A stretch of DNA of 35,177 nt, from positions 1 to 35,177 of IMG/VR virus record IMGVR_UViG_3300006754_000063. The stretch is one strand, 5' to 3'. This document shows, piece by piece, positions 12,164-34,643 of the stretch. A program made the position numbers and the translations under genes. The first letter of the stretch is position 1; each line of letters opens with the position of its first letter. The notes beneath the pieces were generated by a model. That model was not told the origin of the DNA, did no database searches, and was given only the letters and a program-made list of their open reading frames with translations. Source of the DNA: a virus.

Positions 12164-12183
12164 AAATAGAATTCCAAATGTTA

Positions 12184-15100
12184 TTAATTATTTAGACAGC
12201 CTCTCATACCATCATCTATCGAATTGTCGTTTTTCCATGAATTTTCTTTATTATATTGTTTTCTGGAAATACTAATATCTCCCGGATCATAATCGTTTAT
12301 CCATGTATCTGTGTCTGCTGAATATACTAAAACTCTTCTAACTAATCTTAGTGCAGCAACTTCCTCATCACGAAGTGGGGTAATTGTCATACCTTCACAT
12401 AGGCTTTGGGAATCATATCCACAATGATGATGGTTTAGTCCGGGATGGGGATATCCATTAAATATTTGACATGACATCCTGTGGGCATTCCCAGCCTTTC
12501 TTCTTATTTCATCTTTATCTATATTTGAATCGTCGGAGGGCAGCGAATTCCAAATGGAATCAAAATCATTAATGTGATGATAACTTGGACCCATATTTCC
12601 GTCATGTCCCTCAAACGAATCCCAATCCCAATTAAATTTCATATGTGTTGGTCGAACATGACTTCCATTAAACGGATTGACGTACCATCGGTCAGCACTT
12701 GTAGAAGACCAATATGTATCTTCTACTAGAGGTTTATGACCATTACCAATCAGTTGATTATTTAAGTTGGTGTTTTTCGTAGCCCAATAAACATAATTTA
12801 GTTCTGTGAGACTTGGGATATACCAATCCGAATAATTAGTTTGATAATCAAACCGTTCTCCGTCGTTCATTACTCCCGTGTTGTTAATGTTTGAGACATT
12901 CCACAAACAGGAATTGTTTTGGTTAATCGTTTCCCAATATTCCTGATACGATTCTTTAAATTGTTCTGAAGAATTATTAATATCTGTTGAAGAAACGGAG
13001 TCAGGCCAAAATGAAGCATTCCATCTTTCATAATCTTTACCATCTCCAAAGAACCATAAATTTTCTTTATATGATGTGTCATCAAACATTCTTGTATTTA
13101 ATAAACCATCATATTCCGTTGTTTCAATTATATCACCAACAAACGAACCATCTTCATTTATATTAGCATTCTGCATTGTCCCCCAGTTTAACATATAATT
13201 GATATCAGAATCAATTTTATTGGGGTTTACGATATCAACGGGAGATAACACTAGAGCCCAGCGGCGATGTAGTTTATCCTTTCCGTAAATTTTATTTGCA
13301 AAGTGCGTATAATGAGGATTATGTGGATGGATCGGGTTGTTTCTTGTTCCTTCAGTCCAACCATATAGAGACATTAAAGAAGGATATATCTGTTCACCCT
13401 TTGAATTTATATCCCATTTGTTATGTGTATTACAATATGAACTGTATGGAGTTTCAACATAGAAATCTTGATAATAACCTTCACCGGGCGATACGTTATA
13501 TCCATATGGACAACCATAAAGATATGGATAGTAAACATTATACAAGAATTGATTATCGCCCGAAGGAGTAGCACAACGGGAATCAAAATCTGGTTTAAAA
13601 GAACAAATATCATAATCTTCAGAATAAAGATTTGAAACATGATCAGAATTAGTTAGTGTGTATGAATATACTACATCAGGGGCAATGTGATTTTCATACG
13701 GATTCCAACCATAATTAATATCTTTATTTTGTTCTTCTGGGGTCTTGCTGTAAAGGTCGGAGTAGTTTTTATAATTTTTACCATTAGACAATTTTGGACC
13801 GGGGTTATCAGAATTGATGTCTAAAGATTCCCACTCCATTCCGGGGAGATATTTGATGGTATCTCTAGAATGTTTTTCGATTTGTTTTTTAATTTGACCT
13901 TTAGCAAGAGGATATCGATGGTCACCCAACACATCTCCATAATCACAAGTATCGTCATGACCAACATAACCGATAAAATAACCACCCAATTCTTCGTAGT
14001 ATTTGCCCGGCACATACTGAACAGTTTTCTCTTGTCTTTCGTTTGTTAAACAAGGATTGCAATTTGGAGTTTCTGAGGAGAATGGATTCGATGACCTACT
14101 ACCACCACTTCCGCCTGAATATTGTGAGCAGGGAGAACCAATACAAGTTGGTAATTGAGAATTAAAAATACCACCTTGCACAAAACATTCATTCTCCGTT
14201 ACATGAACACAGGTATAATTTTCTCCTTCTGAATCAGGAACACAGCATGCTCTTTTTTGGGTATCTCCTGGGAAGGAGCAGCATTCAACACATCCCGCAT
14301 CCATATAGTCTGGTGTGCAGCATAAAGTATTGAAACCATAAAATGCCCCACCCGTCTCTGAGCACATCGGCGGAGACATTTGCATGCATCTTTTTATTCC
14401 TTCTGGTGTTGTGGGGCAATTTCCTTCATCATCACAAGGAGGAACTTCGTTGTGACAACAAGCACCTGTTTGAAGTCCACCAAAACAGCAAAGGGCATCA
14501 TTGCAAATCATATCATACCACACACCACCAACACCAATACAAATTTCTTGTGTAAAGTTAAAGCAACTTCCTTCGATACAACAAGCATTATTTTCTGTAC
14601 TACATGGATCAGGACATTCGAATGTACCACACGGAACTGATGCAAATGATCCCTTCAGAGTGTCACAGTTATTTTTTGTTGTTGGGTAACAACGTCCCCA
14701 CAAACAACAACTACCACTCGAAACACAATCCGGTCCTTCTGGTCTATTATAACAAGAATTTAAATCAAAAACACCACCAACAGAATCACAATATGCATCA
14801 GTTACATAATCAAGACAGAGATGGTCTATAGTTTCTTCGTTATCATCATCAGTACATAAACAACAAGAACCAAAATTATAAGAATATGGTGTTAGAAATG
14901 GATCTGTTATTTTTTCAGTCTTCTTGAAGTAATATACTTCTTCACTTCCACCAGAAACTCCTAAATTAATACCATATGTGTTACCGTTGTCTCCATAATG
15001 TGAAAATGGTATAGATCTAAATTTTTCGGTGTCTGTAAAGTCATTTGTGATTTCATGAGAATTTGTTGGTGGTACTGCGGGATCAGAAATGATATTTCCG

Positions 15101-15663
15101 CTTGAACTGTCTTCTCTAAATTCTCCTGCTAAATGATATAAATTTCCGTATGTGAAACCAGAACCCAAATGATCAAATTTAGTATATTCGTCTGTTCCCT
15201 GAGCACTGTTCCCACTGTTCATATACAAGAAATTGTTTGCAGTATTACCAATTATACCATATGTGTATTCATTACCATGAATAACAATAGTGTCTGTGGA
15301 CGAATCGATTGTTAAATCACCAGAAGAATATATTCCCCGAAAATATGCAGTTGAACCAGATGTTCCTTGAATTACAATTCCATATGTGCTTCCTTCTTTA
15401 GTACTTAAAACTTCGATAAGGGCATCATTTGGATCTCCGGTTAATCCCCGAAATCCAGTAGTTCCAATGGTTGTTCCATCTGTCAATTCAAAGATAACTT
15501 TATCGTTACCTTCACTAGTAGCACCAATAATACCAATACCCCTTGGTCCCACTGAACCCGTTGTACCAGTATAACCTGTGGCTCCGACAAGACCAGCAGG
15601 ACCAGTGTTTCCGGTTGGTCCCATTGCTCCTATGGTTGGTATTGTACTACTTCCGTTTATCAT
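12184..15663 (-). CDS. Collagen-like fibre protein with Cys repeats and C-terminal DUF1566/Lcl-type domain
   Basis: 1159 aa. Leader MINGSSTIPTI; Gly-X-Y run (residues 12-44); globular module (about 45-130, VIFELTDGTTIGTTG, GSTAYFRGIYSSGDLTIDSSTDTIVIHG) related to the flanking paralogues; about eight Cys units (SCCLWGRC, NACCIEGSC, GACCHNEVPPC, RACCVPDSEGENYTC) from about residue 265 to 520; a Tyr/Asn-rich middle region; and from about residue 946 a DUF1566-like domain with DWYIPSLTELNYVYWATK, TYWSSTSADRW and AALRLVRRVLVY. In Legionella collagen-like protein a domain of this family follows the collagen repeats and binds glycosaminoglycans, so receptor binding is a reasonable inference. The start overlaps the preceding stop as TAATG. 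Probable trimeric adsorption fibre. Confidence 0.88.
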   Translation of the reverse strand: MINGSSTIPTIGAMGPTGNTGPAGLVGATGYTGTTGSVGPRGIGIIGATSEGNDKVIFELTDGTTIGTTGFRGLTGDPNDALIEVLSTKEGSTYGIVIQGTSGSTAYFRGIYSSGDLTIDSSTDTIVIHGNEYTYGIIGNTANNFLYMNSGNSAQGTDEYTKFDHLGSGFTYGNLYHLAGEFREDSSSGNIISDPAVPPTNSHEITNDFTDTEKFRSIPFSHYGDNGNTYGINLGVSGGSEEVYYFKKTEKITDPFLTPYSYNFGSCCLCTDDDNEETIDHLCLDYVTDAYCDSVGGVFDLNSCYNRPEGPDCVSSGSCCLWGRCYPTTKNNCDTLKGSFASVPCGTFECPDPCSTENNACCIEGSCFNFTQEICIGVGGVWYDMICNDALCCFGGLQTGACCHNEVPPCDDEGNCPTTPEGIKRCMQMSPPMCSETGGAFYGFNTLCCTPDYMDAGCVECCSFPGDTQKRACCVPDSEGENYTCVHVTENECFVQGGIFNSQLPTCIGSPCSQYSGGSGGSRSSNPFSSETPNCNPCLTNERQEKTVQYVPGKYYEELGGYFIGYVGHDDTCDYGDVLGDHRYPLAKGQIKKQIEKHSRDTIKYLPGMEWESLDINSDNPGPKLSNGKNYKNYSDLYSKTPEEQNKDINYGWNPYENHIAPDVVYSYTLTNSDHVSNLYSEDYDICSFKPDFDSRCATPSGDNQFLYNVYYPYLYGCPYGYNVSPGEGYYQDFYVETPYSSYCNTHNKWDINSKGEQIYPSLMSLYGWTEGTRNNPIHPHNPHYTHFANKIYGKDKLHRRWALVLSPVDIVNPNKIDSDINYMLNWGTMQNANINEDGSFVGDIIETTEYDGLLNTRMFDDTSYKENLWFFGDGKDYERWNASFWPDSVSSTDINNSSEQFKESYQEYWETINQNNSCLWNVSNINNTGVMNDGERFDYQTNYSDWYIPSLTELNYVYWATKNTNLNNQLIGNGHKPLVEDTYWSSTSADRWYVNPFNGSHVRPTHMKFNWDWDSFEGHDGNMGPSYHHINDFDSIWNSLPSDDSNIDKDEIRRKAGNAHRMSCQIFNGYPHPGLNHHHCGYDSQSLCEGMTITPLRDEEVAALRLVRRVLVYSADTDTWINDYDPGDISISRKQYNKENSWKNDNSIDDGMRGCLNN
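12189..12196 (-). promoter_or_regulatory. Possible late promoter, TCTAAATA
   Basis: The minus strand reads TCTAAATA, 7 of 8 to the T4 late motif and containing CTAAATA, a variant I recall from T4-like cyanophages. It overlaps the stop region of the 1159-aa gene and lies about 26 bases before ATG 12163. Confidence 0.5.
14090..14875 (-). repeat. Cys-rich repeat block of the 1159-aa fibre
   Basis: About eight xCC units (SCCLCTDD through ACCVPDSEGENYTC...SPCSQ), the same unit as in the 1943-aa protein, including the GGVW/GGAF/GGIF turn. Ends in a Gly/Ser linker (SGGSGGSRSS). Confidence 0.85.
15532..15630 (-). repeat. Collagen-like Gly-X-Y region of the 1159-aa protein
   Basis: Residues 12-44, 11 consecutive Gly-X-Y triplets (GAMGPTGNTGPAGLVGATG type), with fewer Pro than in the sister genes. 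Confidence 0.88.
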
Positions 15664-18635
15664 TATTGATTAATCTCTTTGTTTTTGTCCTTCAATAGAG
15701 GAGGAATATTCCATAAAGTATTCCCATCGCCAGTTGCTCCATAATATCTAGTATCACAACGAATCAAACGAATGGGTCTAACCTTACAGGTTTCTTCTGT
15801 TCTTTTCTTTTTCTTGGTTATGAAATTGTTTGAAATTCCGTTTAGATCAAAATTCATACTCCAAGCAACGCTTCCGGCGACCATATCGTTTTCATTTGTG
15901 AACAAACCCTCATGGGGAAGTGTTGGGAACACATTTGTTAATATGTTTATATTATTTTCATCAAAAGAACCGGTCGATGACCAATGATAACCCCCCAAAG
16001 GAATACCATCATTTTTCATTAGTTCTATATTTAAGTTAAATCCGTGTGGATTATCATCATCCAATAAGCAATGTGCTGCTAAGAATGAAAGTTCATCATA
16101 ACTGGGGATATACCACCCTGAAACATTTTCTGGGTTTCCTGTTATTCCTTGTGAGTCAGATGTTAAACCATCATCTAATAGACGAGTGGCCCGAATTGCA
16201 GAGATATAATCTGAAGTTAATCCAGGACCAAAATCGGATGAGGAATATGAATACTCTCCTGTATATCCTTCATGGAGAATATTATCTGCTGAAACCATTC
16301 GAATTGAATTATAAAGACCCCAGTTTCTGTGCCACATACCATTTGCATTTTGGAGAGGTCGAGTTAGTAATTTTTCATATGGGTATTCACCGTTAGCGTG
16401 TGCTTTTTTCTTACTCGTAAAGGTATTAGAAACCACATCTTCCAACGAGAGGTGTCCTTGTTTATAATTGTACCAAAATCCCTCTTTATAATTTAAGAAT
16501 CTTTTATGATAATCAAGCGAAATATCATCATATTCACCATATTGGTTATATAATGGTCCCCAAGAACTTCCGTTGTTGTTCCAATAGAATTCTGTAGTAG
16601 CACCCGAAGATTCTGGGTATGTCACAACTTCACGGTCTCCCGTTATTGCAATAGGTTCCATCGAAACAATCATTAGATATGAATCTGGATTTGTTATGGT
16701 TTCCTGAGAGTATTCTGATTGGTCCAACGAGAATCCATAACCGTGATAATCGTGTTTATTAACATACAAACCACCACTGACCCCATTGCTCCCATTAAGG
16801 AGTGATCTATAATCGGTGTTTCTTCCACCAAACGCAGTGGCACCAAAACACATACTTTGACCGGGTTTAAACATTCCAACCACCATACCACCAGCATACA
16901 GATCGCCAGTCTGTAATGGTATTCCATCAACCAAAAACGAACATTCTTCTCGGCTTAAATTACCTTTGACGGAGGGACAACTAATATAATCACACGAAGA
17001 TCCAGCACCCGCAAACAAACCACCACCTTTCATGCAGTCTGTATATGAATAATTATCATAACAAATTTTATCTATACAACAACCTCCTGTTCCAGAAGAA
17101 CAGGGGGTTTCCTTGTTGCTCGTGTCCCACTTATAAAGGCCATAATCGTTGCTTTGACAAGGAGTGCCGGTTTCTCCAAAAAAGAATCCATGATCCATGC
17201 AAGTTTCTAATATTCCATTGACACAGTGTCCCAGACCATCACAACAATATCCCATTTTAATCTCGGTGAATTTACAATCCGTGTCTGTGCATTTAACCCC
17301 ATCGCCGTTATACACAGCAACATATTCATCCAACAAATCAAAATTTATACATTCGTTTGCTGTAATATTATCATAGCAAATGAATTTTTCTTGAGAACCA
17401 ACTTTTCGTATACAACAGGCTCCTCGACCATAGCAAATGTTTCCAGTATTTCCACTATTTCCTGTATATCCACATGTAGTTCCGGAACCATAAAAATACC
17501 CATCGCATAATGATTGTTCGATATGAATACAATCATCAATTCCTTGGCAGCATGCTCCAGTACTACCTAAATTACTAGCATTTGCCGAGACTGGTTTACA
17601 AGAGAATAAAGAATCTTCGTCGAATTCCCCGTTTCTATAAACGGGTATCCCATACCAAATGTTATTTTTTGAAAAGAAGTTTGTAATATCAATCCCACCA
17701 CTAAAACAAGGTTCCTTTTCAAACGGGAATATAACATTTTGACTAAATCCAACTTGAGACGATCCACTAACACCATCAGTAACCAACATAAATGTATTGG
17801 TTTGGGTCCGGAGATGTTCAGGAGGCGATTGTATATCAAAGAAACACGCTGCATACTTATCAGAAGCAGAAATGCCCCAACTCACAGAATTATCTAAGCC
17901 ACGAATATCAAAATATACATTATGATGATTTTTAATTTCTGATGGAAACAATTCTACATTTAATGCAGTCAACCCATCTATTGAATTTTCTCTGTCTTCA
18001 ACATAATAACCTTCTTCGTTTGTTGGATTCTTAGTTGTTCTTTCTTTATGGGAAAAATATTCTGCAAAATTTTTATTAACAAGAGTTAATGGTGTTCTTG
18101 TGTTTTCTTCTGATGGATTATATCTTGTTCGAGGAATTCCCGTAATTATTCCAGAAGAATTAACACCAATTATATTTCCAGTTTCTCCGCCCCCCGTTAC
18201 ATTAACATAACCAAAGGTTCCCCTATCGAAAATAATTTCAATCCCTTCTTCGTTTGTGTGGAGAGAGACATCACCCGATGAACCAAGTACCCTTAGTGTT
18301 AACGAATTTGTATCGACACTCTCTTTAAATAATGTAGCCCCGGCAACACCAGAAACATTTTCCCCAGCAACAAACAATTTAACTTCATTGTTGGGAGGAC
18401 CAACAATTTCATTATTGGTGGTCACACCAAAAGTAGTACCATCAGCATTTATGAATGTTGTTAATACTCTTTGGTTAGAATCTAAAGTTATTCCAACAAT
18501 TGAAGGACCGGTGGAACCAGTGGATCCAATATCAAATCCCATTATCCCTCCAGGACCAGTTGGTCCTGTTGGCCCTGTTGGTCCTGTTCGGCCTTTTTCT
18601 ATGTGGTAATAACTACTTCCATGGAATATAGGCAT
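15663..18635 (-). CDS. Collagen-like fibre protein with short Cys block and C-terminal DUF1566/Lcl-type domain
   Basis: 990 aa from ATG 18635 (MPIFHGSSYYHIEKGR). A TTG four codons upstream is possible, but the ATG start aligns the leader with MVYIGSS and MINGSS of its paralogues and leaves a 4-base gap after the previous stop. Collagen-like run at residues 15-44; globular module (about 45-155, LTTFINADGTTFGV, GATLFKESV, GSSGDVSLHTNEEGIEIIF); four to five Cys units (ACCQGIDDC, ACCIRKVGSQEKFIC, YCCDGLGHC, CCIDKICYDN) between about 360 and 555; a middle domain with many Tyr and Gly; and a DUF1566-like C-terminus from about residue 840 (GWYIPSYDELSFLAAH, GYHWSSTGSF, VAWSMNFDLNG, VRPIRLIRC). Probable trimeric adsorption fibre, first of three paralogues. 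Confidence 0.88.
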   Translation of the reverse strand: MPIFHGSSYYHIEKGRTGPTGPTGPTGPGGIMGFDIGSTGSTGPSIVGITLDSNQRVLTTFINADGTTFGVTTNNEIVGPPNNEVKLFVAGENVSGVAGATLFKESVDTNSLTLRVLGSSGDVSLHTNEEGIEIIFDRGTFGYVNVTGGGETGNIIGVNSSGIITGIPRTRYNPSEENTRTPLTLVNKNFAEYFSHKERTTKNPTNEEGYYVEDRENSIDGLTALNVELFPSEIKNHHNVYFDIRGLDNSVSWGISASDKYAACFFDIQSPPEHLRTQTNTFMLVTDGVSGSSQVGFSQNVIFPFEKEPCFSGGIDITNFFSKNNIWYGIPVYRNGEFDEDSLFSCKPVSANASNLGSTGACCQGIDDCIHIEQSLCDGYFYGSGTTCGYTGNSGNTGNICYGRGACCIRKVGSQEKFICYDNITANECINFDLLDEYVAVYNGDGVKCTDTDCKFTEIKMGYCCDGLGHCVNGILETCMDHGFFFGETGTPCQSNDYGLYKWDTSNKETPCSSGTGGCCIDKICYDNYSYTDCMKGGGLFAGAGSSCDYISCPSVKGNLSREECSFLVDGIPLQTGDLYAGGMVVGMFKPGQSMCFGATAFGGRNTDYRSLLNGSNGVSGGLYVNKHDYHGYGFSLDQSEYSQETITNPDSYLMIVSMEPIAITGDREVVTYPESSGATTEFYWNNNGSSWGPLYNQYGEYDDISLDYHKRFLNYKEGFWYNYKQGHLSLEDVVSNTFTSKKKAHANGEYPYEKLLTRPLQNANGMWHRNWGLYNSIRMVSADNILHEGYTGEYSYSSSDFGPGLTSDYISAIRATRLLDDGLTSDSQGITGNPENVSGWYIPSYDELSFLAAHCLLDDDNPHGFNLNIELMKNDGIPLGGYHWSSTGSFDENNINILTNVFPTLPHEGLFTNENDMVAGSVAWSMNFDLNGISNNFITKKKKRTEETCKVRPIRLIRCDTRYYGATGDGNTLWNIPPLLKDKNKEINQ
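16975..17560 (-). repeat. Cys-rich repeat block of the 990-aa fibre
   Basis: Four to five xCC units ending at GGGLFAGAGSSCDYISCPS. Same unit as in the 1943- and 1159-aa proteins, but the shortest of the three blocks. Confidence 0.82.
18504..18593 (-). repeat. Collagen-like Gly-X-Y region of the 990-aa protein
   Basis: Residues 15-44: Gly at 15, 18, 21, 24, 27, 30, 33, then 37, 40, 43 (one register slip), with GPT triplets and GST triplets. Confidence 0.9.
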
Positions 18636-18639
18636 AACA

Positions 18640-19875
18640 TTATCCAATCACTCTTGAATTTAAAAGAGCAACGTCATCTTTCAAGTTACTAATTTCAAGA
18701 GCAATATCGTCGATTGTTGGTGTTGTAGCAGAGGTATTTGTTGTTGATGCTGTTAAGATGTCTCTAACTTCTAATTCTTCTACAGAAACTTTACTAGGTA
18801 CATAGACTGCTTGTGTTGTCTTGATTCGTAGGAGGGGAACCATCTGAATGGATGTTGGAGAACCAAAAACATCAATTATACTATCGCTTGTTGATTTATA
18901 TTGGGGTGTGAAAAATTTGGTCATTCCGTTTGATTTTGCTTTAGATGTTGATTTATGAATTGTAATAAAAGAATTTGAACTGCTGAAATTGTCCTCAGTT
19001 GATTTCTTTTTAATTTCATATTTGTTATTAACCAAATCAACATTTTCAATTGTTCCTTGTGTTTTAGAAGTTCCTGTTCCTTGTGATATGTTTTTACTTT
19101 TGTGTGACAAATTAGCATTATATTCCGAAGTAAGTTCGACTTCTTCAATATAACCATATTTTGGTTTACCCGAAGAGTCTTTATATACAGAATATAACGA
19201 TTGATAAGTTGTAGTAGAAAGTTCATGAGAACTTCTTGCATCCACCCATGTGTCATTTTTAGAAGTAATTTCTTCAACCAGATCCGTTGGGACATAAATT
19301 AAACTTCCCACTGGAGGACTAGATAAGTCTTCTCCTGCTACCGCTCCGCCAACTTCATAACCGATATAATTTAAAACTACACCGTTATAGTCATCAATAC
19401 TAGTCCTGGAAAGGAGAGGCTTTGTAATCCATGTTTGGGTTGTTGGTGCAAGATTTTCTAGTTCGCCAGCAGTTATACCACTAAGGAAAAATACATCATT
19501 CCCGCCACCAAGCCCCCCAGTATTACCGTCCGCATCAGGCACATAATTAAATTGTTCTGAAGGATACACAATAAGTCCCGAAATAACCACGTTGGCATAA
19601 TTTATGTCGTCATCGACAGTTTCGATTATTCCAAAAACTTCAGAAGTCGCAGGAGAATCGGCTCTAGCCTTGGCAAATTTGTTTTCACTGACACTTCCGC
19701 TACGAACATCATAAAAGATAACATCACCACCCGTTACTCCGCCCAATGAAGAATCAAAACCACCAGAAAATCCACTCTCATTAATGGTAACAAACAACCG
19801 AGATCCCGAATTGATTTGTAAATCACGAACTAAGAGATTGGGGGTTATATTTGATGTGTTTGAACAACTATTCAT
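18640..19875 (-). CDS. Virion structural protein sharing a module with the adjacent tail fibre
   Basis: 411 aa, family not recognised. N-terminus MNSCSNTSNITPNLLVRDLQI. Residues about 50-177 form a module with FAKARADSPATSEVFGIIETV, VVISGLIVYPSEQ, DVFFLSGITAGEL, TQTWITKPLLSR and NGVVLNYIGYEVGG. The same order of motifs (ARA...A.GI...G, GxxFF, GYVSKPMM, GFVVQYRGVYL) is found in the 749-aa fibre. The middle is Ser/Thr/Lys-rich, and the C-terminal ~35 residues (TPTIDDIALEISNLKDDVALL) should form a short coiled coil, suggesting oligomerisation. GAGGAA precedes ATG 19875. Located between the tail fibre and the collagen-like fibres, it may be a connector or attachment protein; that is inference. 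Confidence 0.78.
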   Translation of the reverse strand: MNSCSNTSNITPNLLVRDLQINSGSRLFVTINESGFSGGFDSSLGGVTGGDVIFYDVRSGSVSENKFAKARADSPATSEVFGIIETVDDDINYANVVISGLIVYPSEQFNYVPDADGNTGGLGGGNDVFFLSGITAGELENLAPTTQTWITKPLLSRTSIDDYNGVVLNYIGYEVGGAVAGEDLSSPPVGSLIYVPTDLVEEITSKNDTWVDARSSHELSTTTYQSLYSVYKDSSGKPKYGYIEEVELTSEYNANLSHKSKNISQGTGTSKTQGTIENVDLVNNKYEIKKKSTEDNFSSSNSFITIHKSTSKAKSNGMTKFFTPQYKSTSDSIIDVFGSPTSIQMVPLLRIKTTQAVYVPSKVSVEELEVRDILTASTTNTSATTPTIDDIALEISNLKDDVALLNSRVIG

Positions 19876-25875: not shown

Positions 25876-27639
25876 TTAACCTCGGGGTTCTATAGATGCA
25901 GTGGTAATCACATTAATTTTTATATTTTCCTTTGCAGTAAACACTAATTCTTCTTGTGGAAGAATTGTCGTTATTGAAAAGGAATTAACTGAAACACCAG
26001 CATTAATTTCCACCAGACCCGTGATATAATCAACAGTTCCGGCTGTTTCTGAAATGATATTTTTAACCCCATTGATATAATTAAATGCAATTATATTGTT
26101 GGTGCTTGGATTGTCTTGTAACCAAAAAGGTTCATTCGACAACGTTGATGTTGTTATTTGTGAAGATGAAATTGTATCACCGGCAAATGAACCTCTAACA
26201 AGTGTAGTTAAGAATTTAATTTTTCTTTTATCGGTAGAAGTTGGTTGTGTGTTTTTCATTTTTAATGATATACCAGAATCAGAAATTGTTAATGCTTTAT
26301 CTTTCTTTTTTAGTTCCTCGTTGATTTGAGTTTTATCAAACACAGTGTTAAATTCTTCAGTTTCATAAAGAGAATTGACTGCGGATTCTACTATAGCATT
26401 CAGTTCGTCTTGGGATCTGGGAGTGTCGTTTGGATTATAAAAACCATTTACGTTTACTATAAGTGAAAATGATTCTGAGGGAATACATTCAGAAAATATA
26501 GTAACGGGTAGTTTAGTGTCAAGAAAAGAAGAAGCATCTACACATTCTCCGTCATTATCAAAAGACATTAAAACTTTTCCATACTGTGGCGGAGATGCTT
26601 CGTCTCCGCCCCAGAGAGAAAAATTATTATATGATTTTTCTTGCAATAGACTAATACAGTCATCTTTTGTTACTGCCCTATCTTGGGCTGCAAACCAGCG
26701 AGGAGCATAAAAACGTATACTGTCTAAATTTGGTCCATTACTTCCACCAGAAGAAGATGATAATGTTGTTATTTCATTATTCCCAGAAAGAGCATCAGCA
26801 TCAGAACCTTTTATGACATCATCTGTTTCGAAAGAAAACACTTCATTGCCATCAGTGCCACTGCTTAAAACAAAAGACAACTGAACTTTATCGTTTGTTT
26901 CTATTTTTCTACCAACAGATATATTTTTTAATTCTTCTTCCAGTCCACCGAATATAATTTTAAATCCTTTTGAATCTCTTTCTAGCCAATATAATTTTTG
27001 ATCTTCGCCCACATTAAGTGCTATGTTCGAACTAAGAACATATTCGTCCCATGTTGATCCCCCATCATCACTTACTTCAACAATTAATGAAGAAATATCA
27101 ATGTTTGGATAAGCATCTAATGATATACTTTGTGATTCTATTTCAACGACAAACACCTGATCAAAAATTATATTTTTGGCTTCATATAATTCTATAGACG
27201 GATGTTTCCCCTGACTGTCTAGTGTATAGTCTTGATATGCAACAAACACAAAAGATTCGTCGCTACCGGTTCCTTTAAATTTATGTTCTAATTTTTTTAT
27301 CACATTACCCTCTCCCCCCTTGGTCATAGAAACAGTAGCAACGGCACTGTTATATCCCGGAACTGCATACCCAAGAGGTTTTGTTAGTGATATTAGAGAT
27401 TCTTCTTTTTGAGCACTATCTAAAAACATTTCGTTAGCAATCATGTTCGTATAAAAAGCATAATATAAGGTATTATAGGATAAGAGATCAATCAAGGTAG
27501 ACATAGCAGAACCGTCATACGTATAGTCGTTTAAATATGAAGCAGCACCCACCTTTTCGGTTTGAAGAAAATTAATAATACTATTTCGTATATCTTCAAA
27601 TCCTAAATTTCCTATGTTTATTCTGTTTCCTGCTACCAT
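25876..27639 (-). CDS. 6: Baseplate wedge protein, gp6-like (baseplate J family)
   Basis: Core wedge protein; gp6 dimers form the continuous ring around the T4 baseplate. 587 aa (T4 gp6 is 660). Strong N-terminal signature: GFEDIRNSIINFLQTEK, YDGSAMSTLIDLLSYNTLYY, AFYTNMIANEMFLDSAQKEE, SLISLTKPLGYAVPGYNSA. The middle holds SLDAYPNIDISSLIVEVSDDG and a KLYWLERDSKGFKIIFGG strand. The J-like part continues with IRFYAPRWFAAQDRAVTKDD (about 310-330) and SFSLIVNVNGFYNP. The ATG follows the gp25 stop with no gap (TAAATG). No unusual Cys content. Identification is firm. Confidence 0.96.
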   Translation of the reverse strand: MVAGNRINIGNLGFEDIRNSIINFLQTEKVGAASYLNDYTYDGSAMSTLIDLLSYNTLYYAFYTNMIANEMFLDSAQKEESLISLTKPLGYAVPGYNSAVATVSMTKGGEGNVIKKLEHKFKGTGSDESFVFVAYQDYTLDSQGKHPSIELYEAKNIIFDQVFVVEIESQSISLDAYPNIDISSLIVEVSDDGGSTWDEYVLSSNIALNVGEDQKLYWLERDSKGFKIIFGGLEEELKNISVGRKIETNDKVQLSFVLSSGTDGNEVFSFETDDVIKGSDADALSGNNEITTLSSSSGGSNGPNLDSIRFYAPRWFAAQDRAVTKDDCISLLQEKSYNNFSLWGGDEASPPQYGKVLMSFDNDGECVDASSFLDTKLPVTIFSECIPSESFSLIVNVNGFYNPNDTPRSQDELNAIVESAVNSLYETEEFNTVFDKTQINEELKKKDKALTISDSGISLKMKNTQPTSTDKRKIKFLTTLVRGSFAGDTISSSQITTSTLSNEPFWLQDNPSTNNIIAFNYINGVKNIISETAGTVDYITGLVEINAGVSVNSFSITTILPQEELVFTAKENIKINVITTASIEPRG

Positions 27640-28044
27640 TTATCTTACTCTCTCTATTGAAAGGACTAATGAATCTTGAACTGGTTCTTTTGGGTTGCCT
27701 ATAATATACTTAAAAATAATTTCAAAACTTAAAATGTGTTGGTCGATAAGTGAATCGTCAATACGAACTTTTTGTAACAATACTCTAGGTTCAAATATCT
27801 CTAATTGGTCCCTAATTTCACTATTTAAAGAATAGTGAGATCCTTGATCATATAATTCGAATAATATATCAGCGAGGTTGGACCCCATTCGAGATTTAAA
27901 TGGTCGTTCTTGCTTATGGGTTAATATGATATTCTTAATAGATTGTTTTATCGAATTTTCATTTGTTTTAATGTTAACATCATCACTAAAACTATTTTTA
28001 GAGAACGAAAAATCAACATCGGAATATTTTATTTTTTCAGGCAT
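27640..28044 (-). CDS. 25: Baseplate wedge protein, gp25-like (GPW/gp25 family)
   Basis: 134 aa, nearly the same as T4 gp25 (132 aa). gp25 joins the wedge core next to gp6 and gp53 and links to the first sheath ring. Signature: NSIKQSIKNIILTHKQERPFKSRMGSNLADILFELYD (about 30-66), with the conserved TxxGERPF-like turn here as THKQERPF, then RDQLEIFEPRVLLQKVRID and a C-terminal strand FEIIFKYIIGNPKEP. A TATAAATA late promoter lies 18 bases upstream and an AAAAAGG ribosome site follows it. First gene of the tightly coupled gp25-gp6-gp7-gp8 group. Confidence 0.96.
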   Translation of the reverse strand: MPEKIKYSDVDFSFSKNSFSDDVNIKTNENSIKQSIKNIILTHKQERPFKSRMGSNLADILFELYDQGSHYSLNSEIRDQLEIFEPRVLLQKVRIDDSLIDQHILSFEIIFKYIIGNPKEPVQDSLVLSIERVR

Positions 28045-28073: not shown

Positions 28074-28919
28074 TTAATTTTCAATTTCTACATCTATTTC
28101 TTTAAAGTGGGAGTCTAAGGAATCAAATCGATTTGTGTCCCGAAGGAGAGAAATGTTCATAGTATGATTTGTGGTGCCAATGATAATATGTTCTATTGTT
28201 GAAATTAACCATTTTCCGTTGTGTTTTCTTTCAGGAAGAGAAGATTTAAATTTGAAATTATCTTCAATTTTAATAACATTTCCAGGTCGTAGTGAGAAAT
28301 CTCCATTCGCCGTTAATATAGATTTTTTGGACATAATGGTGCTCATCAACATATTTCGATATAACGGGGTATGTTTGGGGGTATTCCAATACATCGCATA
28401 TGTTCTATTATATTCTAAATAATCTTTAAATTTTGAATTAATACATGGACACGAACAATTTAACTCTGATTCCGGATTATTCCAATCACATCCCAACCAC
28501 TCGGACCCCAGATTGCTTTCAATTAAAGAACATTCGTCTATCGATTCCCTTAATTCTTTTAATTCTTCGTCTGTGGGTCTGGGATCCATTTCCCCATTAC
28601 TTTTTATCCAATCATGAGCATCATTTGGATTGTTAAATGATTTAACTTCATCTCCGCCTTCACTTAAAACTTTATACCGATTTCCGTCTGTTATATTATC
28701 AGATTCATCAAAAAACACAGTTTCTTTTCTGGGTATTAGATCTTGACACGGACAATTGCAGTATGGTTCATCTTCTGAGCATTCACTGTTGTCTACAAAA
28801 TCCTCTGGATTTGAACATCTAGCAGTTTCATCATAACCGTAGGTAGAATGGCCAATTCTCATTGATGGCCATGTATTGTTGGCAAAAGATGAAAGTTGTA
28901 TAAAAAAGTCTGGAACCAT
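28074..28919 (-). CDS. Small virion protein with hub-like C-terminal barrel and Cys inserts
   Basis: 281 aa. N-terminus MVPDFFIQLSSFANNTWPSMRIGHSTYG. Two Cys knots with the same form, YCNCPCQDLIPRKE (about 53) and LNCSCPCINSKFKDYLEYNR (about 154), flank a charged linker (residues 70-140). The C-terminal ~100 residues (NGDFSLRPGNVIKIEDNFKF, KHNGKWLISTIEHIIIGTTN, HTMNISLLRDTN) match the pattern of the C-terminal domain of contractile-tail hub proteins (G-D-x-x-L-x-x-G, then G-K-W-h-h-x-x-I-x-H, then N-h-x-L-x-R-D). It may therefore supply the last domain of the gp27-like hub encoded two genes upstream. AAAGGA precedes ATG 28919 and a TCTAAATA motif lies upstream. Confidence 0.75.
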   Translation of the reverse strand: MVPDFFIQLSSFANNTWPSMRIGHSTYGYDETARCSNPEDFVDNSECSEDEPYCNCPCQDLIPRKETVFFDESDNITDGNRYKVLSEGGDEVKSFNNPNDAHDWIKSNGEMDPRPTDEELKELRESIDECSLIESNLGSEWLGCDWNNPESELNCSCPCINSKFKDYLEYNRTYAMYWNTPKHTPLYRNMLMSTIMSKKSILTANGDFSLRPGNVIKIEDNFKFKSSLPERKHNGKWLISTIEHIIIGTTNHTMNISLLRDTNRFDSLDSHFKEIDVEIEN

Positions 28920-28937
28920 TGTAAATCCTTTATTCTA

Positions 28938-28945
28938 TATTTAGA
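28938..28945 (-). promoter_or_regulatory. Possible late promoter, TCTAAATA
   Basis: Same 7-of-8 variant as at 12189-12196, again overlapping the stop codon of the preceding gene and about 19 bases before the next ATG (28919). Confidence 0.45.
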
Positions 28946-31727
28946 AATAACTACAATTTTCTGAAAGATCTGTGTTTTCATGAGTCGAAGAGCAGCAACC
29001 ACACTCATCAAAAACGAGAGTTCCTTTATCCTCATATGTGTCAGCACCACTTATCCACCAACAATCTAGATCTGAACAATTTTCATTTGGAACATTTGTG
29101 TCATCCAATGGGACGGGGGGTTGGCCTGCGTTGGTCCATCGGCCACATTGGTCAAATGACATAAAATCATGTGGTGTGAGTGGATAATTTCCAGAAGATA
29201 AATCCATTCCGGGTTCCCACCAATATTCAGGGAATGCATCAGTTGCTGATATATCTTCTCCAAAACGGTCTATACAATGGTGTGCTGAACTAATATATTC
29301 AAGATAATGATCATTATAATATTGAGTACTACCAAGGGAGAAAAAGTAACCCCACAGAATGGATTGTGTTGCAAGAAACGGGGATCTACAACTATCCATC
29401 AATTCAGAAAAGAATTCAGAATCCCAGTGCCAATTATCTGGTTCGTTGCAACAAAAATCATCATCAAAATCATCGTCTGTACATGCGGGGTCTATACAAT
29501 AGCAACGACCAGTGTGGGTGTATATGTTTCTGTAGCGAGTTGGTAATTTATACTCTGGAAATCCTGTTTGGTCGCAAACTAAAGGAAAGGTAACAAAGTG
29601 ATCATTAACGTTTATACCAGCAGATACCTTACCTCTAATATCATCGGTGTTTCCAGTAGAATATGCTGTGTAATCTGGCCTAAAATCATCTCCAAGTTCA
29701 TTTGCAGGTATTGGACCGCCTGCCATCCCACTACAATAATCCATCACATTATAGCCATAATACAATGGGTCACATTCCCAATTCGGAGGAATATTAAAAT
29801 CGTTTGGTCCTGTGCCTCCAATAAATAAATTTATATTTAGTTCTTCGCACGACACAGCACAATGTGGATATGTTGCAGGACTAATTTTTTCTATAAAAAA
29901 GGAATTTGCCTGATATAATTTTTCTTCATCACATGGACATATATTTACGTCTTCGTCTTCTATTATATTTGTGTGATAGCAGGGACTACGGTGTTTTGTT
30001 TTGAAAATTTCTGTGAAATTTTTCATATATTTTGTTGTTTCATTTACATCTACTAATAGGATATTATCCCTGTCTGCCGTACCACGAACAAGAGTATCAT
30101 TTTCTCTGTAATTTCCCGGAGCAGGTTCCAATTCCCATGTGTGTGGATTTACCCACGGAATTGGAACGCGACATGGATCACGTTGTATTCCATCAGAAGG
30201 TGAGTATTGCGCCGACCAAGCATAACCACCAAAAGTTGAGTCATTCCACGGAAATCCGCGAGCACAAGTTCTAAAATTCAAAAATTCACCACCAAGAAGA
30301 TCATCGCCACATTCAACCAGACTACAATAATAATCTTCCCACGGGTCTCCGGGGTGTTCTGCGGGTTTGTCGGCATCAAAATGAGGCCAATGGTTATATT
30401 GATTAAAGAATTTATCTACACTGACATTTTGTGGAACTGGATCATCAGGAGATGATATTGTTGTATAGCATCCAGTTTTTCCCCCATACGATTCTAAACA
30501 CGAATGACCAAAGCAATTTTCCTCATTTACACCTATAGGACAGGCATTAAATTTGTAATTTGCAACTTCTTCTCCCCACTCTTCTATAAATTTGTTTTTT
30601 AATTTATAGTAAAATATATGTTCACCCAATAAAGCCGAAACTTGTTCGGGGAATGGGTTTAGACCCCTTGGATCATTATTAAAATCAGAGTGGTCTTCAT
30701 ATCCAGGGAAGGCATGATAAGGAGTAGTACTGTCTAACATGGGAATTACATTATGTAATTCCCATTCATTTCCATAACAATCTTTGGGTCCAGTATAACC
30801 GGGATCATTCCAAGAATCCCATCTCCACAATTTGTGATATCTCGAAGTGTCTTCAACACCAGAAATGAAAATAATATTCTGGGGATATGGATTCATTTCT
30901 CCATCTTCTAAAATTTGAGGGCCAAATCGTTCTATGAGAGAACCATAAACATTATTTACAGTTTCTGTTAATGAATCTATATTTTTTCCGGGTTTACTTA
31001 AGTTTGGTAATCCTTCACAAATGTCGTGGTTGGTCGTATCAAACTTTAAAAACGGTAAGTCGTAACAATCCGGAGGATTGTATACACACCCACCATTAAA
31101 TTCTGGGAAAAAACTAGAACATGTACTTTCACAATCTGATGCCCATTGGTAATTTAAACAAACATTTCCTGGCTCTGTAAAATCACAATCTTCAGTATCA
31201 TATAGCGCATCTGGATTAAGGGGGCTAACGCAACCTCGAACACAATTAGATTGTTGTGCTCCTCTTTCTGGATGAGCACCGCAATAAGAATTCAAATCAT
31301 AACGTTGGATTTCATCTTTATTTTCGCATGCAACGTCAATATCATATAAATTCCATTGAAAATCAACAACACATTCAAATCCAATTCTAACTAATCCTGT
31401 TTCCGAATCAACATATTGATTATCTATTTGATATGTTTCTGCTTTTACTTTTGGGTGTATTATGTCTTCGTCTAATAAACACCAGGGAGTGTGCTCTGAC
31501 ATCCAAAAGAGATATTCTTTATATTGTGGGACGTATATGTCCTCATAAGTAGGGCAATCATTACACGTTGTGTTGCTGGGATGGTGAAAATGGTACTCAT
31601 TTAAAAGATGAAGTCCGGGACCATATTCATAAATTGACGGGTTTGACATCTTTGTCGGCACATTAAAGGTAATATAAGCCGAGGGTTCTTTGTAGCAATC
31701 ACAGCAACAACCATTATATGAAGTCAT
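28941..31727 (-). CDS. Large Cys/Trp/Tyr-rich virion protein, unknown family
   Basis: 928 aa; not recognised. Begins MTSYNGCCCDCYKEPSAYITF and ends ECGCCSSTHENTDLSENCSYF. Many Cys throughout, often paired or in tight sets (CVRGCVS, FCCNEPDNW, GRCYCIDPACTDDD, NICPCDEEKLY), with many Trp, Tyr, Pro and Asp; strongly acidic overall. It lacks the GACC...GG repeat periodicity of the fibres, so this is a different disulfide-type fold or set of folds. There is no lysozyme motif, signal peptide or membrane segment. The start shares one base with the stop of the hub gene (TAATG). It stands in the hub region, where T4 places gp5 next to gp53; a central spike or hub accessory role is possible, as is a fibre-like role, but neither is shown by the sequence. 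Confidence 0.72.
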   Translation of the reverse strand: MTSYNGCCCDCYKEPSAYITFNVPTKMSNPSIYEYGPGLHLLNEYHFHHPSNTTCNDCPTYEDIYVPQYKEYLFWMSEHTPWCLLDEDIIHPKVKAETYQIDNQYVDSETGLVRIGFECVVDFQWNLYDIDVACENKDEIQRYDLNSYCGAHPERGAQQSNCVRGCVSPLNPDALYDTEDCDFTEPGNVCLNYQWASDCESTCSSFFPEFNGGCVYNPPDCYDLPFLKFDTTNHDICEGLPNLSKPGKNIDSLTETVNNVYGSLIERFGPQILEDGEMNPYPQNIIFISGVEDTSRYHKLWRWDSWNDPGYTGPKDCYGNEWELHNVIPMLDSTTPYHAFPGYEDHSDFNNDPRGLNPFPEQVSALLGEHIFYYKLKNKFIEEWGEEVANYKFNACPIGVNEENCFGHSCLESYGGKTGCYTTISSPDDPVPQNVSVDKFFNQYNHWPHFDADKPAEHPGDPWEDYYCSLVECGDDLLGGEFLNFRTCARGFPWNDSTFGGYAWSAQYSPSDGIQRDPCRVPIPWVNPHTWELEPAPGNYRENDTLVRGTADRDNILLVDVNETTKYMKNFTEIFKTKHRSPCYHTNIIEDEDVNICPCDEEKLYQANSFFIEKISPATYPHCAVSCEELNINLFIGGTGPNDFNIPPNWECDPLYYGYNVMDYCSGMAGGPIPANELGDDFRPDYTAYSTGNTDDIRGKVSAGINVNDHFVTFPLVCDQTGFPEYKLPTRYRNIYTHTGRCYCIDPACTDDDFDDDFCCNEPDNWHWDSEFFSELMDSCRSPFLATQSILWGYFFSLGSTQYYNDHYLEYISSAHHCIDRFGEDISATDAFPEYWWEPGMDLSSGNYPLTPHDFMSFDQCGRWTNAGQPPVPLDDTNVPNENCSDLDCWWISGADTYEDKGTLVFDECGCCSSTHENTDLSENCSYF

Positions 31728-33679
31728 TATTTACACCTGCATAATCCATCATGAGCGTTCACCACATCAAAGAAATATATATCCTTTGGAATTAACGGAT
31801 CAGGAGAGTCTTCGTCTTCTTTTTGCGGATGGATGGAATTTAAAATATAACTTGGCATTCTATACATCTGTACGACATGCCCATGAAAATTAACTTCTAT
31901 GTTTTCGTGATCTATATCACATGGATTGTCTTCGACTTTAAAATAACCACCAACAGGCATCATTTGATGTCCTTTGGGATATTGGTTTAGTTTCTCACTC
32001 GCAACATTAACCCCAGGTCCAACAAATATATCATCAGCAGTTGCTCCCTCTGGTCTGGTGTTCATTAATTCGTTAATGTTATAGGCAGGTCTTGACCATT
32101 CTATGTCCCCCTCTTCCTGATACGATCCGGACAGTCCCTCGGGAACACTAACAACCACCAATGGCGAATTATCAGAACTGAAAGTTTCGATATCATCCTC
32201 ATATCCCTCAACAAAACTTTTAGGCCAAATTTCAACTTCTCTCCACTTATATTCATAAATTCCCCCGCGAGTTTCGTTTAATTCTTCGACAGGAATAAAT
32301 TTCGATTCCTCGATAACGGCCAAGAAGTGATCTTTTATTATGGGTTTTTTCGCACAGCAGATTCGGTTTTCATAAATGTCCCATTTTGTTTTTAGATTTA
32401 TTTTTTTTCTATATTCTTCTTTTAATTCTTCAACCGGACCTTTAATATCATTTCTTATTGTTTTTAATTTTTCATAGTCTAAGTCGGTTTGGTCAAATAT
32501 ACATTGCCATTGTTTTTCTTCTGCCTCGCCAGATTTATCTTCGTAACGGTCGGTTGGCACTGGGTACAATCTGTTAAATTTGGGAGAGAAATAACCATAG
32601 ATGTTATCCCCCAGTTTAATTTTCTTGTTGTAAGTTTTAGTATATTCGTCTTGTACCAGGGGATTTTCTTCTACTGTTTTCCACTTTCCAAATTCATCCG
32701 AATAGTTAAATTCTATTCTTTCTTGAAGGATAGAATCTTGAACATCAATATAATCAAGATAAGGATTTGCGTAATTCGGTTTTATATAATCATAATGTGA
32801 ATTAAAAGCACCAATGTCAAACAATTTTAATGTGTTATTATCTTCCTCGGCAACAAACGATATTATCTTGGTTGTATATTCTAATATACCCTCCTTCGAC
32901 CCGATTGTGTTGTATGTTTTAACGGTATCTTCCCCCAACAAACTCTCAATAGATCTAAATCTCCATTGTTTCAAGTCCCTCCAAAATAAATAATTAGGAG
33001 CATATGAATTGTCTTCGGGAACAGAATTTTCAGAAAGATTAATTAAAGTTTGAATAACTGTTTGATCATACTCTTCTGGTTTGCCCCAAGGATATGATTT
33101 TGTATTTTTCTTAAACCAAACAGCATTTTCAGTATTTTCTGCATCAAATTCTTCGTCGGAAAAATATTTTCTTTGAATGGTTTGTACTAATCCCGATTCT
33201 TTATCGGAAGATATTTTCCCTATAAATTCTACATCAGTTAGTTCAATCTCCGAATTGCTTAATATGTTATATTCACAAGAAACAAATTCGATTAATATAA
33301 AAATTCCAGTAGTGGTTGTTGGAAATTTAATTTTCTCATGAATAGAATTTATATCTCCTATTGTTTGGGCAGAATATGCGCACAACACAAGTTCAATGGT
33401 AGAATTCTCCACAGATGGAGTTTCTACTTTAATAGAAATAACTTCTTCACCGGTAAAATTGAATTCATCAAAAATTAATCCAGTTTCTTTTATTATTAAA
33501 GAACCACGAACAAAAGGAGAAAAAAGACTTTCTTCTAAAACCAATGCTGCTAATATATTTTGAGTTTCGGATGGGACTATCGATAATGAGTTTTTAATGG
33601 ATTTGGAATCATAGTCATATTTTGAAATAATAATTTCATTTATTGTAATATCGCCATCTCTTGTATATTCATTTGCCAT
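31727..33679 (-). CDS. 27: Baseplate hub protein, gp27-like
   Basis: 650 aa. N-terminal pattern: MANEYTRDGDITINEIIISKYD, LVLEESLFSPFVRGSLIIKET (typical of hub first domains), then FTGEEVISIKVETPS, VEFIGKISSDKE, and at about 170-260 KNTKSYPWGKP, QTLINLSENSVPEDNSYAPNYLFWRDLKQWRFRSIESLL. The last is the strongest hub motif (N-x-L-F-W-x-x-x-x-x-W-x-F-x-S-I-x-x-L). The later part includes FGKWKTVEENPLVQDEYTKTYN and CCAKKPIIKDHFLAVIEE. T4 gp27 is 391 aa and forms the trimeric torus around the spike. The C-terminus ends YFFDVVNAHDGLCRCK without the expected final barrel domain, which seems to be on the 281-aa gene. AGGATAA precedes ATG 33679. Confidence 0.82.
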   Translation of the reverse strand: MANEYTRDGDITINEIIISKYDYDSKSIKNSLSIVPSETQNILAALVLEESLFSPFVRGSLIIKETGLIFDEFNFTGEEVISIKVETPSVENSTIELVLCAYSAQTIGDINSIHEKIKFPTTTTGIFILIEFVSCEYNILSNSEIELTDVEFIGKISSDKESGLVQTIQRKYFSDEEFDAENTENAVWFKKNTKSYPWGKPEEYDQTVIQTLINLSENSVPEDNSYAPNYLFWRDLKQWRFRSIESLLGEDTVKTYNTIGSKEGILEYTTKIISFVAEEDNNTLKLFDIGAFNSHYDYIKPNYANPYLDYIDVQDSILQERIEFNYSDEFGKWKTVEENPLVQDEYTKTYNKKIKLGDNIYGYFSPKFNRLYPVPTDRYEDKSGEAEEKQWQCIFDQTDLDYEKLKTIRNDIKGPVEELKEEYRKKINLKTKWDIYENRICCAKKPIIKDHFLAVIEESKFIPVEELNETRGGIYEYKWREVEIWPKSFVEGYEDDIETFSSDNSPLVVVSVPEGLSGSYQEEGDIEWSRPAYNINELMNTRPEGATADDIFVGPGVNVASEKLNQYPKGHQMMPVGGYFKVEDNPCDIDHENIEVNFHGHVVQMYRMPSYILNSIHPQKEDEDSPDPLIPKDIYFFDVVNAHDGLCRCK

Positions 33680-33686
33680 AATAAAA

Positions 33687-34643
33687 TTATCCTATTTCAA
33701 CAAAAACAGTTTTTCCTCTCTGACCAGGTGTTTGTATTAAATTTTTTATTTCTTTGAATATTTTTTCTTTAAAGTGGGGATGAATTAATTTTATTTGCCT
33801 TTTCGAGTCGTTTTCTGCTAACAATTTATTTTCAATTGTTTCAGAATCCACTGGAGAATAATCCAATCCATTTATATAATGATATAAAACAGAATCAGAA
33901 GAATCGCACAATCCTCCAGTGTCTCCATTTGGGTAATTGATATCATTTATGTTCCCTGTGCTTCCATATGGATTTACGATAAATCCATCTTGATAAAAGG
34001 CCGATATAGATTCTTTTGTATCAATTGATTTTTTTATTTGGGATTGAAATATGTTACTTGTACATGCAGTACTACCAGAAATCATATCTATTTTTCCCGA
34101 ATCATTTTCTCGGAATATTGTAATATAATCGTCTTCGTTTAAAGAGCCAACGATTCTGGAAGAATCTATTCTAAAAAAATTAGAATCCCAGTCATCAACT
34201 ATTGCATAGTTTTCCATGCTTGATGTTACTCCGTCTGGGCATCCTGGTTCGCCCATTGTACATCCCTCAGATTGGGCGATAACATCATTTACTTTAAAAT
34301 CTTTAATGTCATTTATAAAATATGATTTCCCTCCAAAATAAAGAACACTATTTAGTTGTCTTTGAAGTTGGGAAGAACTTTTTGGCCATTCTTCTAGTGG
34401 GTCAATAATGTCATTAGACATTAAAACTAACCAGAACCATCGAGAACTTCCATAAAAATCTATAGCCACATCCTCGGGAGATTCTCCGTCTTTTATTGTA
34501 TAATCGATATATATTCTGTGATTTGAGAGGGTCGTTTTCGAGAAACGAACTCGTTGAAACACATTACCAAGATCTACCAACATACCACCCGTGGTTCCGG
34601 TTAAATCATAATTGAAAATTTTTGGAAACAATTCTAAAAACAT
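33687..34643 (-). CDS. 53: Baseplate wedge protein, gp53-like
   Basis: 318 aa against 196 in T4 gp53. N-terminus MFLELFPKIFNYDLTGTTGGMLVDLGNVFQRVRF and the diagnostic segment YIDYTIKDGESPEDVAIDFYGSSRWFWLVLMSNDIIDPLEEWPKS (about 47-90, LysM-like), which lines up with GSPRPEELANAIYGNPQLYW of T4. The C-terminus has KRQIKLIHPHFKEKIFKEIKNLI, equivalent to RQIKII in T4. In between lies an insertion of about 120 residues with CTMGEPGCPDG and other beta-rich sequence. gp53 closes adjacent wedges together in the baseplate. AGGAA precedes ATG 34643. Confidence 0.92.
   Translation of the reverse strand: MFLELFPKIFNYDLTGTTGGMLVDLGNVFQRVRFSKTTLSNHRIYIDYTIKDGESPEDVAIDFYGSSRWFWLVLMSNDIIDPLEEWPKSSSQLQRQLNSVLYFGGKSYFINDIKDFKVNDVIAQSEGCTMGEPGCPDGVTSSMENYAIVDDWDSNFFRIDSSRIVGSLNEDDYITIFRENDSGKIDMISGSTACTSNIFQSQIKKSIDTKESISAFYQDGFIVNPYGSTGNINDINYPNGDTGGLCDSSDSVLYHYINGLDYSPVDSETIENKLLAENDSKRQIKLIHPHFKEKIFKEIKNLIQTPGQRGKTVFVEIG

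Follow-up and report, generated by a model that had tools for sequence, protein, structure and literature searches.

A hypervariable Cys-rich protein encoded between the two parts of a predicted split baseplate hub in uncultured T4-like phages

In contractile injection machines, which include phage tails, type VI secretion systems and extracellular injection systems, few parts are as well conserved as the hub and the spike. In T4 and in its relatives with an intact hub, the gp27-type hub is the product of a single gene and is about 390-435 aa long. Bacteriophage lambda has a split hub, gpL/gpJ. To our knowledge, split hubs occur only in non-contractile tails (lambda, gene transfer agents), and our searches of the open-access literature turned up no account of a contractile phage in which a variable gene separates the parts of a split hub. 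In RcGTA and roseophage R4C, both with non-contractile tails, the hub is split as hub and megatron, and four hub cysteines of RcGTA bind an iron-sulphur cluster (PMC7296036, PMC10276861). Phage 0305phi8-36 has an enlarged hub, gp147, with added and swapped domains (PMC2147016), and cyanophage A-1(L) has a four-domain hub (PMC10966104). Cysteine networks, such as those of phage Milano, can hold a baseplate together. A two-chain hub and a variable tip module are already known in kind. What is new here is a predicted two-chain hub in contractile T4-like phages, which suggests a novel construction of the tail tip.

The window, by which we mean the whole stretch of DNA that was analysed, is 35,177 nt long (positions 1 to 35,177 of IMG/VR virus record IMGVR_UViG_3300006754_000063). 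Its features are collected in Table 1. Like T4 gp27, the hub of the window has gp48/54, gp53, gp25 and gp6 as neighbours. In contrast to T4 gp27, it is encoded by two genes, hubN and hubC, which have long Cys-bearing extensions and a third gene, for a protein of 928 aa, between them.

Table 1. Features of the window, in window coordinates, and the evidence for each.
Feature	Position	Strand	Basis
Three large fibre genes with Cys repeat	6332-12163, 12184-15663, 15663-18647		GACC..C..C..C copies 14, 4 and 4
gp6 baseplate wedge, tree marker	25876..27639	-	phrog_219, PF21379
gp25 baseplate wedge	27640..28044	-	PF04965 above cut-off, phrog_261
hubC, predicted C-terminal part of the same hub as hubN, 281 aa, completes second tube domain	28074..28919	-	phrog_350, hhalign
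Spacer before hubC with ribosome-site-like AAAGGA	28920..28940	-	sequence
928-aa Cys/Trp/Tyr-rich acidic ORF (hub-gap protein)	28941..31727	-	homologues in same gap
Core segment III, residues 372-411, ...LKNKFIEEWGEEVANYKFNAC...C	30495..30614	-	homologue alignments
Core segment II, residues 215-293, ...CYDLPFLKF...RFGPQILEDGEMNPYPQNIIFIS...	30849..31085	-	homologue alignments
Core segment I, residues 76-121, PWCLLDEDIIHPK...VRIGFECV	31365..31502	-	invariant residues in homologue alignments; locally confident in AF2
CCC motif, residues 7-9 of the 928-aa protein	31701..31709	-	17/20 middle ORFs
TAATG stop/start overlap of hubN and the 928-aa gene	31725..31729	-	sequence; translational coupling
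hubN, predicted N-terminal part of gp27-type hub, 650 aa, C-terminal extension ending DGLCRCK	31727..33679	-	phrog_350, hhalign
hubN C-terminal DGLCRCK (DGxCxC motif)	31730..31750	-	16/17 vs 0/13 association
gp53 baseplate wedge	33687..34643	-	PF11246 above cut-off, phrog_232

The hub family phrog_350 (436 positions) was matched by hubN at positions 14-306 (E=5.5e-14) and by hubC at positions 342-427 (E=4.4e-8). When the two families were aligned with the intact hubs by hhalign, the hubN family covered columns 33-261 (E=6e-16) and the hubC family columns 332-414 (E=1e-11). The matches show that in this T4-like virus two genes share the predicted hub: hubN and hubC jointly cover one gp27-type hub, so that the 928-aa gene sits within a split hub gene. 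In nine records, the 157 kb and 123 kb contigs among them, phrog_350 matches were confined to the split hub parts; therefore no second hub is present in those nine records, which are fragments of up to 157 kb. Sequence searches of the PDB with hubN, hubC and the intact hubs gave nothing real.

We examined the link to T4 gp27 itself with a six-member gp27 alignment. The intact hubs matched this alignment over most of the hub length (E=8.5e-6) and hubC matched the gp27 family at residues 294-367 (E=7e-6); the match of hubN to gp27 33-211 was weak (E=0.03), with the register unchanged. The hub is cut at about positions 261-332 of the intact hub, inside the natural interruption of the second tube domain, which in gp27 is made of residues 207-239 and 307-368 (PMC3004832). 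As judged from the alignments, one barrel would thus need completion by two chains. Like the split hubs of RcGTA, R4C and lambda, the hub of the window has the gp27 ring on two chains, here at the profile level. Hubs of the RcGTA/lambda type have a whole tube domain per chain, whereas here the cut falls within the second tube domain, and the gene in between encodes a hypervariable Cys-rich protein, unlike in RcGTA, R4C and lambda. Hub cysteines are common to RcGTA/R4C and the present locus, where conserved Cys residues are found.

Programmed frameshifting was rejected, as the frame between hubN and the middle ORF varies by locus, mostly with spacers of 6-21 nt. Own starts and ribosome-site-like spacers, again in varying frames, were present at 19 loci, and an own start and a spacer precede hubC in all relatives compared.

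The plus strand across 28941-31727 holds 42 stops, which places the 928-aa ORF on the minus strand, where its ATG overlaps the upstream stop codon as TAATG. The ORF is unchanged in four further contigs. When it was compared with the gene of L009, its nearest relative, identity was 60% per aligned residue and the changes at codon positions 1, 2 and 3 were 31, 25 and 51%, respectively. Since the differences are concentrated at third codon positions, the ORF is truly coding and not a chance reading frame. Such third-position-biased change is kept by hubN, the 928-aa gene and hubC alike.

The 928-aa protein contains 50 Cys (5.4%), 2.6% Trp and 6.5% Tyr and has a net charge of about -100. Its N-terminus is MTSYNGCCCDC and its C-terminal region reads ECGCC...NCSYF. 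Pfam, NCBIfam and the annotated phage collection were searched with no match, and a marginal match was obtained to a PHROG of 67 positions without known function (E=0.0012); the predicted protein represents a family new to the libraries searched in this analysis. The profile of the fibre Cys repeat (GACC...C...C...C unit), which finds copies in all three fibre genes of the window (Table 1), found 0 copies in the 928-aa protein. The original prediction, made from the letters and the reading frames, had described a large, acidic protein, Cys-dense from its first to its last residues, with no recognised motif and no fibre repeat unit, and coupled to a hub gene by TAATG. Composition, termini, library searches and the repeat count all agree with that description, the upstream gene matches phrog_350, and no spike or fibre family was matched with confidence. 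The observations are thereby confirmed and the interpretation is supported in part; the split of the hub had been missed.

Like the 928-aa protein, the Cys-rich fibre proteins of the same virus have a high Cys content. The fibre Cys repeat is also present in some relatives of the 928-aa protein, inserted in L011 and appended in L112 (one copy each), and other middle ORFs have 3-8 copies. The fibre genes of the window (6332-18647) have collagen-like GPTGPTG starts.

Scanning with gp6 and with hubC yielded well over a hundred loci. The 928-aa protein, hubN, hubC and the fused hub of L034 had no match in the phage collection and no cultured relative there, so every relative comes from IMG/VR, and species genomes scanned with hubC contained no relative, which leaves no clue to the host. 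Homologues of the 928-aa protein occupy the same gap in L009, L011, L171, L014, L112 and L175. The synteny check proposed with the original prediction has thus placed relatives at the same position in a large uncultured clade, and the 928-aa gene belongs to a syntenic set and is not an isolated orphan.

Four layouts occur in the clade of the window. In the first, a middle ORF (264-2604 aa, 1.4-12% Cys) separates the parts of the split hub; the second is a split hub without a middle ORF (L042, L043, L130, L144 and L157), the third a Cys-rich insert inside hubN, and the fourth a single fused hub ORF of 1457-2016 aa. In more distant T4-like relatives (L050, L052, L055, L059 and L072) the order is gp53, an intact hub of about 415-435 aa, gp5-type spike/lysozyme, gp25 and gp6. 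The predicted hub of the clade is cut or expanded at one main point, and the gap is usually filled by an extra ORF; the loci of the second layout indicate that the module is dispensable for some split hubs. A gp6 tree built by a quick method, in which L175 is a long branch, separated 49 expanded- or split-hub rows from 11 intact-hub rows by one branch with support of 94. The intact, fused and split states need six changes on this tree, which gives at least five switches between fused and split. L175 (L175:2209-8406) and L176 have a 1068-aa middle ORF of the 928-aa family at another point of the hub, and by inspection the C-terminal hub ORF of L175 (438 aa) holds a KW..IE segment that is found in hubN of the window.

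The middle part of the fused hubs was expected to be homologous to the 928-aa protein, but BLAST and inspection show a different insert. This insert is common to the fused hubs L109:4299-8672, L034:855-5897 and L016:7053-9557 and has motifs like LGQDPYGFDIAVK and SYVRVEFESPI. L031:266-8544 has a 2604-aa middle region with 10.8% Cys and a CCC start, plus an extra ORF of 158 aa before hubC. Another family of middle ORFs, found in L098:5786-7951 and L105:5684-7954, has a segment like WEWIRNWVxSGGKLVIMGE beside Cys repeats, which is possibly a Rossmann-like domain. In L042, whose split hub lacks a middle ORF, the gp53-type wedge protein (L042:4970-6778) carries a long added part that matches RCC1 repeats (PF13540, E=1e-14). 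The Cys motifs that are common in the clade, CC of hubN and/or those of hubC, are missing from the hubs without a middle ORF in L042, L043 and L035.

The interval between the hub and gp25, where the 928-aa gene sits in the window, is filled in the intact-hub relatives by the gene for gp5 (phrog_430, Gp5_OB), and none of the T4 gp5 domains was found in the 928-aa protein or the clade. A search for PF06714 (Gp5_OB) gave a match in 5 of 5 intact-hub records, in one case below the curated cut-off, against 0 of 25 records with a split or expanded hub, the 157 kb and 123 kb contigs included; all records of the clade are formally fragments, so the absence of gp5 is strong and not final. The general OB domain PF04717 and a T4-type lysozyme were both lacking in nine split- or expanded-hub records. 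There was no phrog_430 match in the window, in its 42 kb twin contig or in the large contigs, and PF06714 was likewise missing from the twin contig. A weak phrog_430 match in the L157 record proved to be an endolysin-like LysM-lysozyme and not a spike. The 928-aa protein is no member of the gp5 family by any of the searches made, PF06714, PF04717, the lysozyme domain, a beta-helix and phrog_430 all being unmatched. The original prediction had noted that no gp5-type lysozyme is visible in the window, in agreement with the phrog_430 search, and had seen here the place of a spike or a hub accessory. The gp5 gene of the intact-hub relatives bears out this placement, in which the identity of the next gene as hubC had been overlooked.

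The 928-aa protein is 56% identical to that of L009, compared with 78-91% for 13 neighbouring tail genes, one fibre gene included; this ranks the predicted protein last in conservation among the 14 tail-module genes compared with the nearest relative. Against L011 and L014 it was again the most divergent or nearly so. Core segments I-III are common to all homologues, and elsewhere the sequence is replaced or lengthened. Cys residues 7, 8, 9, 83, 190, 221, 396 and 410 are invariant across the homologues.

The invariant residues 7-9 form a CCC motif. CCC was found within the first 15 residues of 17 of the 20 distinct middle ORFs. Of the 764 other ORFs with 200 aa or more, 11 had a CCC start, all of them copies of middle ORFs in overlapping loci, so this start occurs in none of about 750 other ORFs. 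Before CCC middle ORFs, hubN ends in DGxCxC in 16 of 17 cases; where the middle ORF is non-CCC or missing, it does so in 0 of 13. The pairing is carried by two to three clades, and the Fisher value of 1e-7 is therefore overstated. We infer that the C-terminal end of hubN is tied to the start of the middle protein through cysteines, by a disulphide or a metal.

On balance, the 928-aa protein is probably a variable, envelope-facing module that is held by the split hub and takes the place of gp5. It would be a structural part of the central hub, in which the DGxCxC tail of hubN may be tied to the CCC head by a disulphide or a metal. The protein would hang from the distal face of the hub ring, the site of gp5 in T4, and would there contact the envelope of the host as a variable module that engages a receptor or the envelope itself. 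Its exposed loops may be swapped and lengthened from virus to virus. As in gp147 and the hub of A-1(L), tip functions would be taken over by way of added, swapped domains. In those two hubs a single hub chain carries the domains, which can be recognised as cell-wall enzymes, in contrast to the separate gene without an enzyme match found here.

The favoured reading could be refined to a metal-dependent adhesin with a von Willebrand A (MIDAS) domain as its core, which is possible, if rather doubtful. For the 928-aa protein, AF2 gave a poor model (mean pLDDT 33). The core of the smallest homologue, L112, which is 324 aa long, was modelled moderately well (80-89 in blocks), and its alternating strands and helices would suit such a domain. 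The full vWA metal-site motif, DYSGSM...GGGT/FGT...FLSDG, is present in the middle ORFs of L127 and L141, the latter of 294 aa, with a weak match to the CobT-vWA Pfam family (E=0.043). L112, which has a partial MIDAS (IDVSGS) just after the last strand of core segment II, is a sister phage of L141 in the gp6 tree, and this also speaks for the domain. Against it, the MIDAS residues DxSxS, T and D are missing from the 928-aa protein, that is, the predicted protein has lost the DxSxS motif, and Foldseek with the L112 model found no significant fold match in the PDB and BFVD. Profile comparison also failed to join L141 to the L112/928-aa core, so that homology of the two groups was not accepted; one short match was found between L014 and L141 (E=7e-4). 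An alpha/beta core, possibly von Willebrand A-like, is the leading guess for the fold.

An adhesin or fibre-like role at the rim of the baseplate rather than at the hub, with no link to the hub genes beyond a common operon, is unlikely for the 928-aa protein. Fast evolution is usual in receptor-binding proteins, and the fibre Cys repeat of L011, L112 and other middle ORFs would fit such a protein, but the 928-aa protein has neither the repeat nor a collagen-like start, and the true fibre genes are 10-20 kb distant. Moreover, the place between the hub parts is kept across very divergent phages and the CCC/DGxCxC pairing is specific to hubN. A central spike or needle replacing gp5, as a trimeric puncturing tip, is distinctly unlikely. 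The protein does occupy the gp5 interval, and the gp5, VgrG-type OB and T4-lysozyme domains are missing, but no beta-helix repeat or OB domain was detected in the 928-aa protein, and a needle would hardly tolerate a tenfold range of length, with zero in several phages. A spike gene of another type may also lie elsewhere, all records being fragments.

Hub assembly factors, such as T4 gp26/gp28/gp51 and lambda gpK/gpI, are encoded beside or between hub genes, and of the genes that lie between hub parts, in lambda (L-K-I-J) as well as in gene transfer agents (g13-g14-g15), some have no structural role. By this precedent the 928-aa protein could be a non-structural assembly factor, and its coupling to hubN would suggest co-folding. 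We regard this as decidedly improbable, for an assembly catalyst would hardly be so large, acidic and hypervariable or contain 50 cysteines, and the gene is missing in some split-hub phages. That the hub was broken by accident, through an assembly error, gene decay or the insertion of a mobile element, for example an intein, is hardly credible even though the cut lies inside one conserved protein family, and is refuted by its recurrence in dozens of contigs and many lineages, identical in four contigs, with three genes that show third-position-biased change, own starts and a conserved hubN end.

Returning to the module held by the split hub, we put forward tentatively that this T4-like clade has dropped gp5 and that its tail tip may consist of a hub whose two chains share a barrel, with a Cys-anchored variable protein plugged in between. 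In a widespread uncultured clade, the predicted hub has repeatedly been cut or joined near one point; the cut contains the least conserved tail gene, and the spike gene is lacking. These phages therefore offer a testable case of a tail tip rebuilt around an exchangeable module, and raise the question of how they puncture the cell without gp5. If the reading of a plugged-in tip is true, receptor engagement and the tip would be one exchangeable part at the centre of the hub.
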